NCBI GenBank assembly: GCA_031432545.1
Contig: JAVKGX010000001.1
Location: 318,411 to 382,410, forward strand
Direction: 5' to 3'
Length of the DNA stretch: 64,000 bases
Source of the DNA: Armatimonadota bacterium
Lineage (GTDB): Bacteria > Sysuimicrobiota > Sysuimicrobiia > Sysuimicrobiales > Sysuimicrobiaceae
Below are positions 31,107 through 44,868 of this stretch, piece after piece; position 1 is the stretch's first letter; every line of letters starts with the position of its first letter. A program made the translations under genes and the position numbers. A model generated the notes under the pieces. That model saw only the letters and a program-made list of their open reading frames with translations. It was not told the DNA's origin and ran no database searches.

Positions 31107-31898
31107 ATGCGCGGGGCACAACTTTTAGAGCGGGCGCTGAAGATCCTGGACATGTTCACGCCTGAACGGCCGGCCTGGCTGGTCAGCGAGATCAGTCACG
31201 CTACGGGGCTGTCGCGTCCGACGGTTTACCGAATCCTGCGAGCACTCCAGGTGTACGGCTATGTCCGTCGGGACCCGGTGACCAGTCGCTTCCGACTCGG
31301 TTCAGGTGCGTTGGCGCTGGGGCGGAGAGCCTTGGAAAGCATTGAGCTGAGGCAGGTAGCCTACCCCGTGATGCGCAGGTTGCAGGAGGCTACGGGGGAG
31401 ACGGTGCTGCTCACGGTCGTCAGCGAGGACGGAACGGAGAGCGTGTGCGTGGAACGGTTGGAGAGCCCTCAACGTCTGCGCCTCATTCTCGAGGTGGGTC
31501 GCAGGGTCCCCCTTCACGCGGGTGCCTCCAGCAAGGTCCTCCTCGCTTTTATGCGGCCCGAGCAGGTGCGGAGGGTGGTCGCGCTGCGCGGATTGCCGCG
31601 CCTGAACAAGAACACAATCACGGAACCAGACGCATTGGAGCAGGAGCTCGCGGAAATCCGGCGCCGTGGGTACGCGCTGAGCTTCGAGGAGACGAACCAG
31701 GGCGCGGCGGGGATAGCGGCGCCGGTGTTCGATGTCGCAGGACAACTTGCGGGTGGGCTCGGGATCGCCGGCCCCCTGATCCGCTTCGGGGACGAGGCAC
31801 TGACACACTTGATCCCATTGGTGTGCAGGCACGCGGACGAGATCACGCGGGCGCTGGGAGGGCAGCGAGCAGCGACGCCCCTTGGGGCATCGCGCTAA
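31107..31898 (+). CDS. IclR family transcriptional regulator
   Basis: 263 residues. N-terminal winged helix (RALKILDMFTPERPAWLVSEISHATGLSRPTVYRILRALQVYGYV), then the IclR effector domain (LLTVVSEDGTESVCVERLES, GRRVPLHAGASSKVLLAFM, RRRGYALSFEETNQGAAGIAAPVFD). First gene of the 13.8-kb catabolic operon and followed by the aminotransferase after 13 nt, so it very likely controls the operon in response to the substrate or an intermediate. An inverted repeat overlapping its promoter is the likely site. Confidence 0.94.
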   Translation: MRGAQLLERALKILDMFTPERPAWLVSEISHATGLSRPTVYRILRALQVYGYVRRDPVTSRFRLGSGALALGRRALESIELRQVAYPVMRRLQEATGETVLLTVVSEDGTESVCVERLESPQRLRLILEVGRRVPLHAGASSKVLLAFMRPEQVRRVVALRGLPRLNKNTITEPDALEQELAEIRRRGYALSFEETNQGAAGIAAPVFDVAGQLAGGLGIAGPLIRFGDEALTHLIPLVCRHADEITRALGGQRAATPLGASR

Positions 31899-31911
31899 GG
31901 GGAGGTGGACA

Positions 31912-33276
31912 GTGACCACGGAGCTGGAAACCTGGCAAGCAAAGATGGCCCAGTCGGCTGCGCTTGCGGAGCGGGCCCGACGGGTTCTTCCCGATGGGGT
32001 CTCGTCGCCCGTGCGGGGCGGGCGGACCTTCGAACCGCACCCCTTTTACACAGCCCGCGCGGAGGGTGCCTATCTCTACGACGAAGACAGGAACCGTTAC
32101 GTGGACACCGTTATGGCGTTCGGGCCTGTCATTTTGGGCCATGCACACCCCGAGGTGACCCAGGCGGTCCAGGACCAGGCAGCTTGCGGGTTGATCTACG
32201 GGACCTGCAACGCGCTCGAGGTGGAGGTGGCGGAGGCCGTCCGCCAGATGATCCCCACTGCGGAGATGGTACGGTTCACACCGTCTGGCACCGAGGCCAC
32301 CATGCACGCGCTGCGGCTGGCCCGCGGCTTCACCGGTAAGCCGAAGATCCTAAAGTTCGAGGGTCACTACCACGGCAACCACGACGCCGTGCTGGTGAGC
32401 GTGAACCCTCCCCTGGACGTGGTGGGCTCGGAGAGAGCCCCTGTGCGGGTGCCTGTGGGGTCGGGCATCCCGGAGGAGCACTACACCCACACTCTGGTGG
32501 CAGCGTGGAACGACCTGGAAGAGGCCGAGCGCTGGATCCGGCGGCACCGGCACGAGCTCGCCGCGGTGATCACGGAGCCGGTGATGGCCAACAAGGGTTT
32601 CATCGCGCCTGCCCCCGGATACCTGCAGGCGCTGGAGCGGATCTGCCGAGAGAACGACGTGTTGTTCGTCCTGGACGAGGTGATTACCGGCTTCCGCATG
32701 GCTCCGGGCGGCGCGCAGGAGGTGTACGGTCTGCGCCCGGATCTGTCCACCTTTGCCAAGGCCATGGCGAATGGCGCGCCCGTCGGTGCCTTCGTGGGAC
32801 GGAGGGAGATCATGGCGCTTCTGGAGGGTGGGCGGGTGCGGCACGCGGGCACCTACAACGCGAGCCCTCTCTGCCTGGCCGCGGCTAAAGCCACCCTGGA
32901 CGTATTGCGGCGCGGCGAGGGCGAAGTGTACCAGACGTTGAACCGGCTGGGGACGCGTCTACAAGATGGCTTGCGCGAGGTGGCGACGCGACTGGCGGTG
33001 CCCGTGCTCGTGCAGGGAGAAGGCTCCATGATGCAGCTGTACGTGACCCGTCTGACGCAGGTCCGCACGTACCGGGAGGCAGCCGCCACCCGACGTGACC
33101 TGTTTAGGGAGTTTGCACACCGCATGATCCTTCGGGGCGTGTTCGTGCATCCAGACAACTACGAGCACTGGTTCCTGTCGGCGGCTCATACGGACCGTGA
33201 GGTGGATGCGATTCTGCAGGCCGCGGAGGACACCCTGCGGGAGATGAAGGGTGAAGGTTTGTTCGCCGCTGTTTAG
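31912..33276 (+). CDS. Class-III aminotransferase (glutamate-1-semialdehyde aminomutase-like)
   Basis: PLP enzyme of 454 residues. GGGGAGGTGG precedes GTG 31912. It reads like the GSA-aminomutase/beta-amino-acid aminotransferase branch: RRVLPDGVSSPVRGG, MVRFTPSGTEATMHALRLARGFTG, FEGHYHGNHDAVLVS, the cofactor Asp in VLFVLDEVITGFR and the PLP Lys in STFAKAMANGAPVGAF. In this operon it is probably a catabolic transaminase making a semialdehyde for the downstream aldehyde dehydrogenase, not a tetrapyrrole enzyme; the heme block is 20 kb away. Confidence 0.9.
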   Translation: MTTELETWQAKMAQSAALAERARRVLPDGVSSPVRGGRTFEPHPFYTARAEGAYLYDEDRNRYVDTVMAFGPVILGHAHPEVTQAVQDQAACGLIYGTCNALEVEVAEAVRQMIPTAEMVRFTPSGTEATMHALRLARGFTGKPKILKFEGHYHGNHDAVLVSVNPPLDVVGSERAPVRVPVGSGIPEEHYTHTLVAAWNDLEEAERWIRRHRHELAAVITEPVMANKGFIAPAPGYLQALERICRENDVLFVLDEVITGFRMAPGGAQEVYGLRPDLSTFAKAMANGAPVGAFVGRREIMALLEGGRVRHAGTYNASPLCLAAAKATLDVLRRGEGEVYQTLNRLGTRLQDGLREVATRLAVPVLVQGEGSMMQLYVTRLTQVRTYREAAATRRDLFREFAHRMILRGVFVHPDNYEHWFLSAAHTDREVDAILQAAEDTLREMKGEGLFAAV

Positions 33277-43414: not shown

Positions 43415-43431
43415 GAAGGAGGAAACGGGCG

Positions 43432-44868
43432 ATGGCATTCGAAATCCGCGAGCGCCTGCTCATCGGGGGCGACTGGGTACCCGGAGGCGATCCAGTCGAG
43501 GTTCGGAACAAGTACACGGGGGAGGTTCTCGCAACGCTGCCGACGGCGCGCCGGGAGGACGTGGACGCCGCGGTGGGAGCCGCGAGCATAGCCGCGGAGC
43601 GGATGGCGGAGTTGCCTGCGTACCGGCGGGCGGAGGTCCTTGCTCGAGTTGCGTCCGCCTTGCGGGAACGGCGGGAAGAAGTGGCGCGCCTGATCGCTGC
43701 GGAGGCAGGCAAGGCGCTCAAGTACGCCCGTGTGGAAGTGGACCGGGCCATCAACACCTTCAACGTGGCGAGCGAGGAGGCCAAGCGCATCCATGGAGAG
43801 ACCGTCCCCCTCGACGCCGTCCCTCAGGGAGACGGCTACTTTGGGTTTTATATCCGGCGGCCTGTTGGAGTCGTAGCAGCGATCACCCCATTCAACTTCC
43901 CTCTGAATCTGGTAGCACACAAAGTGGCGCCGGCGATCGCGGCGGGGAATGCGATCGTGCTCAAGCCTGCGACCACCACACCGCTGACAGCGGTCGTTCT
44001 GTGTGAACTGCTCGAGGACGCCGGGCTACCTTCGGGAGGGATCAACCTGGTGCTGGGGCCCGGCGGTTCCGTGGGTGAGTGGCTGGTGAGCGACCAGCGG
44101 GTGGCGAAGGTAACGTTTACCGGGAGCACGGACGTGGCACGTCGGATTACGGAGTGCGCGGGGATCAAAAAGGTGACGTTTGAGCTGGGCAATACGTCGC
44201 CGGTAATTGTCGCGCCGGACGCTGATCTGGAGGACGTGGCGCGGCGGTGTGCCGTGGGTGCGTACTACAACTCCGGACAGGTGTGCCTTTCTGTGCAGAG
44301 GGTGTATGCTCAACGAAAGGAGTACGAACCGTTCCTGGAGCGGTTCGCGGACGCGGCGGAGTCTATGGTCGTCGGGGATCCACTGGACGAACGGGTCGAT
44401 GTGGGACCGATGATCGACGAACGAGAAGCGGTACGGATTGAGCAGTGGGTCCGCGAGGCGGTGGAGGAGGGAGCGCGGATCGTGGTTGGCGGGCGGCGAG
44501 AGGGCCCGGTTTACTGGCCAACTGTCCTGGCGGACGTAGGGCCCGAGATGAAGGTGGTAGCGCAGGAGGCCTTTGCGCCGGTCGCCTCCGTGATTCCCTA
44601 CGAGGACTTTGAGGAGGCGCTGCGGGCTGCAGACCGAACGCCGTATGGGTTGCAGGCGGCAGTCTTCACAAGGGACCTGGGCCGCGTGTTCCAGGCGATT
44701 CGCCGGTTGAATTTCGGCGGGATCGTCATAAACGACGTCCCCACGTTCCGGGTGGATCACATGCCGTACGGTGGGAACCGGCAGAGCGGTGTCGGCCGGG
44801 AGGGCGTGCGGTTCGCGATGGAGGAGATGACGAGCATTCAAATGGTCGTGATCCGAACGGGCCTGTAA
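43432..44868 (+). CDS. Aldehyde dehydrogenase (NAD(P)-dependent)
   Basis: 478 residues. AAGGAGGAAA precedes ATG 43432. Catalytic Cys285 in YYNSGQVCLSVQR, Glu251 in TFELGNTSP, cofactor-contacting Lys178 in VLKPATTTPL and TFTGSTDVARR all present. The style (PFNFPLNLVAHKVAPAIAAGNA) is of the lactaldehyde/succinate-semialdehyde/methylmalonate-semialdehyde-like branch of CoA-independent enzymes. Last gene of the operon; it would oxidise the semialdehyde produced by the aminotransferase or the Mo-enzyme branch. Confidence 0.93.
   Translation: MAFEIRERLLIGGDWVPGGDPVEVRNKYTGEVLATLPTARREDVDAAVGAASIAAERMAELPAYRRAEVLARVASALRERREEVARLIAAEAGKALKYARVEVDRAINTFNVASEEAKRIHGETVPLDAVPQGDGYFGFYIRRPVGVVAAITPFNFPLNLVAHKVAPAIAAGNAIVLKPATTTPLTAVVLCELLEDAGLPSGGINLVLGPGGSVGEWLVSDQRVAKVTFTGSTDVARRITECAGIKKVTFELGNTSPVIVAPDADLEDVARRCAVGAYYNSGQVCLSVQRVYAQRKEYEPFLERFADAAESMVVGDPLDERVDVGPMIDEREAVRIEQWVREAVEEGARIVVGGRREGPVYWPTVLADVGPEMKVVAQEAFAPVASVIPYEDFEEALRAADRTPYGLQAAVFTRDLGRVFQAIRRLNFGGIVINDVPTFRVDHMPYGGNRQSGVGREGVRFAMEEMTSIQMVVIRTGL

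Follow-up and report, generated by a model that had tools for sequence, protein, structure and literature searches.

A candidate catabolic operon with a DUF6282 protein and a molybdenum hydroxylase in an Armatimonadota bacterium

The 64,000-nucleotide stretch analyzed here (contig JAVKGX010000001.1, positions 318,411 to 382,410, from an Armatimonadota bacterium; hereafter, the window) carries 13 genes in one direction at 31107-44868 (+), the gene for an IclR-family regulator included. Among their products are a three-subunit molybdenum (Mo) hydroxylase, a class-III aminotransferase, an SDR-family dehydrogenase/reductase, and a protein of the DUF6282 family. Distant bacteria have this enzyme core too, though combined with other importers, and it probably represents a real but undescribed pathway. 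Tentatively, with belief and doubt close to balanced, we read the operon as serving to take up an N-heterocyclic or cyclic-amide compound and break it down to feed nitrogen assimilation.

Recurrence of the enzyme set

Close DUF6282 orthologues are rare. Within the phylum (a comparison set of 43 genomes), only HRbin32 has one; it is the closest match of the host, with a DUF6282 protein 92% identical to that of the window. At a match threshold of E below 1e-60 to 1e-70, three samples of Actinomycetota gave a close match in 4/299, 7/296, and 6/397 genomes. The operon of HRbin32 lies in two pieces, aminotransferase-DUF6282-SDR-M-S-L and LivK-H-M-G, where the first M, S, and L are the Mo hydroxylase subunits (MoM, MoS, and MoL). 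The actinobacterial sets are more distant, at about 65 to 72% identity to the window for DUF6282, 59 to 60% for MoL, and 49 to 54% for the SDR protein over its full length. IclR homologues of about 43 to 51% identity adjoin them.

The first-pass annotation had left it to comparison with other genomes whether these neighbors stay together, and in Actinomycetota the enzyme set does. Locus L044/L006 has IclR, SDR, M, S, L, CoxG, an aminotransferase, an aldehyde dehydrogenase (ALDH), an NMT1-type importer, an M20 deacylase, DUF6282, and a second aminotransferase; L045/L004 resembles it, without the first aminotransferase and with XdhC added; L003 has SDR, M, S, L, CoxG, DUF6282, IclR, and an aminotransferase. 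Loci L067 to L070 share IclR, SDR, and DUF6282, with M, S, and L too where contigs allow. A HemL-like aminotransferase 37 to 39% identical to that of the window is found in L067 to L069, a second class-III aminotransferase in L068 to L070, and an ALDH 44 to 45% identical to that of the window in L068 and L070. Wherever a locus of this DUF6282 subclade has enough context, MoMSL and a class-III aminotransferase are present. Searches turned up no homologous operon to which a substrate is assigned. On either side of its set, L068 has genes for a cytochrome P450-like protein (L068:574-1773) and an MttB-family methyltransferase (L068:17572-19116). L067 to L070 also have in common a near-palindromic GGATGCTACCATCC-like intergenic motif upstream of IclR, DUF6282, and ALDH, which may serve as a promoter or IclR site.

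The importer differs by lineage: Liv-type in the window and HRbin32, NMT1-type in L004/L006, and SBP_bac_8-type near the set in L068/L069; L067 has an ABC ATPase and permease similar to the NMT1-type importer of L004/L006. The conserved core therefore does not extend to the Liv block. An initial description of the operon as a self-contained unit of uptake and catabolism holds up. The lack of conservation of the Liv importer with the core outside this phylum is what one would expect if the genes were adjacent by chance or formed several independent small operons. We find this hardly credible, since the same enzyme set occurs in two phyla, the junctions are tight, and the Liv block is kept in HRbin32; conservation of the set leads us to reject a chance neighborhood.

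In a tree of DUF6282 proteins, the 11 Mo-linked close orthologues form one group (support 88/82), counting two on short contigs: L042/L048, which shows part of the M subunit only, and L070, which shows SDR, IclR, ALDH, and aminotransferase and none of M, S, and L. The proteins of the window and HRbin32 fall among the actinobacterial ones (support 80/78), a placement suggestive of transfer from Actinomycetota; the tree support is moderate, and the operon was probably acquired horizontally. Mean GC content is 66.2% for the operon and 69.1% for the remainder of the window. Two long-branch DUF6282 proteins outside the close clade (L047 and L031) are also Mo-linked. The first (G043:C30; 36% identical) neighbors a Mo hydroxylase with a large subunit that shares 55% identity with MoL of the window; the second, on a Halorussus vallis plasmid, adjoins a BenE-type transporter, a thioesterase, two AMP-binding proteins, and a Mo hydroxylase.

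Loci from outside this subclade served as controls. A MoL homologue was found in 0/6 loci of the sister subclade (L061 to L066) and in 0/7 distant plasmid loci (L024 to L030); the distant plasmid copies of DUF6282 keep company with other catabolic genes. The six sister proteins, from Acidimicrobiia, are 60 to 62% identical to that of the window and have none of the set's neighbors. They form a tight clade; where scanned, PGA_cap and Fic genes lie nearby in L061 and a PGA_cap gene in L064.

The encoded enzymes, importer, and gene layout

The DUF6282 protein (33300..34190) matches PF19799 at 229 bits against a gathering score of 26.8, over profile positions 1-196 of 196. It had been called a metal-dependent hydrolase at first pass, and the additional evidence agrees. 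H16, H18, K48, H164, H189, and D249 are invariant in an alignment of 15 members, and the AlphaFold2 (AF2) model has a mean predicted local distance difference test (pLDDT) score of 93. The best Foldseek matches in the PDB are the renal dipeptidase-like Sco3058, the lactonase GkaP, PTER, dihydroorotase, GlcNAc-6-P deacetylase, AtzC, and LigI; the top amidohydrolases among them have E values of about 1e-7, at identities of only 11 to 18%, and no close sequence relative was found in the PDB. By the barrel fold of the model and its HxH/H/H/D ligand pattern, it is predicted to be an enzyme of the amidohydrolase superfamily. The Lys or Glu of the binuclear type is not seen after beta-4, where predicted strand 98-100 is followed by M-P; the invariant K48 follows beta-2. 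Given no such residue after predicted beta-4, we expect a mononuclear metal site. As modeled, the protein could act as a ring-opening hydrolase, a lactonase, a deaminase, or a decarboxylase. A literature search found nothing on DUF6282 or on this gene set, and PF19799 is without an assigned function.

The Mo hydroxylase consists of a FAD subunit, MoM (34986..35861; PF00941, PF03450), a 2x[2Fe-2S] subunit, MoS (35858..36346; PF00111, PF01799), and a molybdopterin subunit of the xanthine dehydrogenase family, MoL (36336..38657; PF01315, PF02738, PF20256). MoL has the motifs GGGFGGKED, AMRGFGAMQ, and GARGIGEPP, which are kept in those orthologues at 54 to 60% identity that span them, that of the L047 cluster included; a 31% identical paralogue in L003 is without the first two. 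The E, R, and E of these motifs correspond to the Glu and Arg that bind the substrate in xanthine dehydrogenase and to its catalytic Glu. MoL stays below every NCBIfam equivalog cutoff, those for xanthine dehydrogenase included (TIGR03196, 548 against 784; NF043082, 500 against 780). AMRGFGA had already been noticed in place of the CO dehydrogenase loop, and the motif is indeed there; with a TIGR02416 score of 283 against a cutoff of 991, MoL is ruled out as CoxL, and the early label "coxMSL" has to be dropped by motif and score alike. The 2.2-Mb host genome encodes eight MoCoBD_1 (xanthine dehydrogenase-family) large subunits.

The best PDB matches of MoL are 4-hydroxybenzoyl-CoA reductase and nicotinate dehydrogenase. 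The former, together with the likeness of the DUF6282 model to GkaP and to the 2-pyrone-4,6-dicarboxylate hydrolase LigI, would suit a different kind of substrate, an aromatic, furan-like, or N-poor compound with an amino side chain. The Mo enzyme would then oxidize an aldehyde or aromatic ring, DUF6282 would be a lactonase or decarboxylase, and the aminotransferase would remove the side-chain amine. The haloarchaeal DUF6282 gene, whose neighbors encode a Mo hydroxylase, two AMP-binding ligases, and a thioesterase, adds to this, as do the catechol dioxygenase or FAH genes that accompany other DUF6282 genes. Yet CoA ligase and thioesterase genes are missing from the operon of the window, identity to the haloarchaeal MoL is only 29%, and the closest clusters repeatedly contain an M20 deacylase and aminotransferases. 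On balance, we consider such a substrate unlikely, if still a serious competitor.

The class-III aminotransferase (31912..33276; PF00202) belongs to the subgroup of HemL, the glutamate-1-semialdehyde aminomutase (GSAM). One can thus envision a biosynthetic or housekeeping operon, for example, one related to tetrapyrroles, and the protein does exceed the cutoff of the broad GSAM subfamily PRK00062 (466.6 against 398). However, it misses that of TIGR00713 for HemL itself (448.7 bits against 527.3), while a separate HemL of the host genome (L072) scores 596.4; we reject a role as HemL, or in tetrapyrrole formation, on these grounds. The importer, IclR, Mo hydroxylase, and ALDH are also catabolic in style, and the distribution within the phylum is patchy. 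A biosynthetic operon is therefore very improbable. The SPVR motif is kept, and the stretch after the YHG motif is altered and longer; from this alteration, a transaminase seems likelier than an aminomutase.

Of the other two enzymes, the SDR-family protein (34201..34986; PF13561/PF00106) is an NAD(P)-dependent dehydrogenase/reductase. The ALDH (43432..44868) lies near the lactaldehyde, phosphonoacetaldehyde, and sulfoacetaldehyde dehydrogenases, below every NCBIfam equivalog cutoff.

The importer comprises a LivK-type periplasmic binding protein (38654..39832; PF13458), permeases of the LivH type (39852..40748; PF02653) and LivM type (40745..41953; PF02653), and ATPases of the LivG type (41925..42701; best NCBIfam match PRK11300 LivG, 225.7 bits) and LivF type (42698..43414, with its start at 42698; PF00005). 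Glu226 of leucine-binding protein (LBP; Asp in Atu2422) pairs with the ammonium group of the ligand. In an alignment of LivK to LBP and Atu2422, this residue is replaced by S259 and Thr102 of LBP by I135, so that the amino-acid-binding residues are partly lost. With the ammonium-pairing acid replaced, an ordinary amino acid is unlikely as the ligand, and an amino acid importer is disfavored by S259 and I135.

The IclR-family regulator (31107..31898; PF01614, PF09339) is preceded by a promoter-like region at 31038..31101 (+), with TTGACA at 31038 and a perfect 7-bp inverted repeat, CAATATG-N12-CATATTG, at 31076-31101. The repeat is at most suggestive of an IclR operator: by a rough estimate, such repeats are expected by chance at about 0.2 per 230 bp. 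A scan for consensus promoters called no plus-strand site at 31038-31101, and comparison with the upstream regions of the actinobacterial loci showed neither this repeat nor any IclR operator that they share with the window.

The named families and the single direction reported at first pass stand, with 13 genes, IclR included, in place of 12. A claim of mostly 4-nucleotide overlaps was not borne out: such overlaps are seen at 4/12 junctions (MoM/MoS, MoL/LivK, LivH/LivM, and LivG/LivF), and the other eight have overlaps of 1, 11, or 29 nucleotides or gaps of about 10 to 23. These figures use starts reset by ribosome-site-like sequence for the aminotransferase (GTG at 31912) and MoL (GTG at 36336), for which the longest open reading frames begin upstream. 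Despite few 4-nucleotide overlaps, the tight junctions are compatible with a single transcription unit, and we infer that the 13 genes are cotranscribed as one catabolic operon.

Genomic position and proposed pathway

The host genome (2.19 Mb in 21 contigs, rated 100% complete) has the operon between genes for glutamine synthetase at 29090-30631 (-) and glutamate synthase (GOGAT) at 45150-49583 (-), both on the opposite strand. In two relatives, G039 and G040, the spacing between these genes is about 2.5 kb. There, G040 has amtB and an ANTAR response regulator and G039 an amtB match at the corresponding place; G035 has amtB directly upstream of glutamine synthetase. No ammonium transporter match was found anywhere in the genome of the window. 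The operon thus occupies the amtB position of these relatives. Such a location is consistent with a part in supplying organic nitrogen, and the exchange suggests that use of ammonium gave way to use of organic nitrogen. The link has exceptions: G036 also is without amtB, and HRbin32 carries both the operon and amtB.

We imagine that, under IclR control, the Liv importer would take up an organic nitrogen compound, probably not an amino acid. The Mo hydroxylase may then hydroxylate a ring carbon of an N-heteroaromatic, as its xanthine dehydrogenase-type active-site residues suggest, and the DUF6282 metalloenzyme would hydrolyze the resulting cyclic amide (or lactone). The SDR protein may oxidize or reduce a hydroxyl or keto group. 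The freed amino compound would be transaminated to an aldehyde, which the ALDH would oxidize to the acid. The amino nitrogen would go to glutamate, next to glutamine synthetase and GOGAT. The M20 deacylases of two actinobacterial clusters would fit an N-acyl intermediate.

A specific form of this proposal, catabolism of an imidazole or pyrimidine, seems improbable to us. In its favor, L004/L006 have an NMT1/THI5-type importer together with a deacylase of the ArgE/DapE (M20) type, a class-III aminotransferase, and ALDH, and HutI is itself an enzyme of the amidohydrolase superfamily. As a lead only, a histamine-like amine might be converted to the aldehyde and imidazole acid, hydroxylated by the Mo enzyme to an imidazolone, opened by DUF6282 in HutI-like fashion, and deformylated by M20; another lead is degradation of the thiamin pyrimidine following YlmB/ThiXYZ-like uptake. 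Weighing on the other side, the binding protein of L006 has only a weak best match in the PDB, to an aliphatic-sulfonate binder, and the operon of the window has neither M20 nor an NMT1-type importer. A literature search on histamine-type clusters found none that match, and papers on ThiXYZ appear to deal with thiamin metabolism or transport.

Several points weigh against the breakdown of an N-heterocycle or cyclic amide in general. Paralogues of DUF6282 lie in operons without an obvious heterocycle theme. Orthology of the aminotransferase and ALDH does not hold across all clusters, and the M20 deacylase of the actinobacterial clusters is absent from the window. The PDB matches of MoL are those given above, and the E and R of its site fit other substrates of the xanthine dehydrogenase family too. 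The coexistence of operon and amtB in HRbin32 makes the amtB exchange not essential to the role of the operon.

We are more doubtful of the fuller proposal: an undescribed N-heteroaromatic pathway, common to Actinomycetota and a deep-branching lineage, probably Sysuimicrobiota (CSP1-3), in which DUF6282 opens the ring of the Mo hydroxylase product and which here replaces amtB at glutamine synthetase and GOGAT. If true, it would assign a function to DUF6282, a family that occurs in both bacteria and haloarchaea, and mark out a testable route by which uncultured lineages degrade heterocycles or amides. A core of IclR, SDR, MoMSL, DUF6282, and aminotransferase with exchangeable importers narrows what needs assaying.

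Comparison with known systems

The individual proteins depart from characterized relatives in different ways. Like dihydroorotase, renal dipeptidase, LigI, and HutI of the amidohydrolase superfamily, the DUF6282 protein has a predicted TIM barrel, HxH, two His, and Asp; it differs in ending predicted beta-4 without Lys or Glu and in having its own Pfam family. The aminotransferase shares the class-III subgroup and SPVR with HemL and GntE, yet it is below both equivalog cutoffs. LivK is like LivJ/LivK and Atu2422 in fold and importer type and differs in the replaced acid and Thr102. Xanthine dehydrogenase PucD/XdhA gives the best NCBIfam matches of MoL, which keeps the GGKE Glu, RGFG Arg, and GE Glu and differs in sub-cutoff scores and gene context. 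With the aerobic CO dehydrogenase CoxMSL, the enzyme shares its three-subunit architecture; CoxG homologues occur in the related actinobacterial clusters.

To our knowledge, in a comparison made without alignment, no cluster of Mo hydroxylases for N-heterocycles combines DUF6282, a HemL-like aminotransferase, SDR, ALDH, IclR, and a Liv importer. Such clusters (quinaldine, in Arthrobacter sp. Rue61a [PMC3534580]; nicotine; nicotinate dehydrogenase) likewise join M, S, and L subunits of the xanthine dehydrogenase family with hydrolases and dehydrogenases. The operon is an undescribed variant within a known kind, the Mo hydroxylase catabolic operons, with a functionally unassigned hydrolase family at its core.

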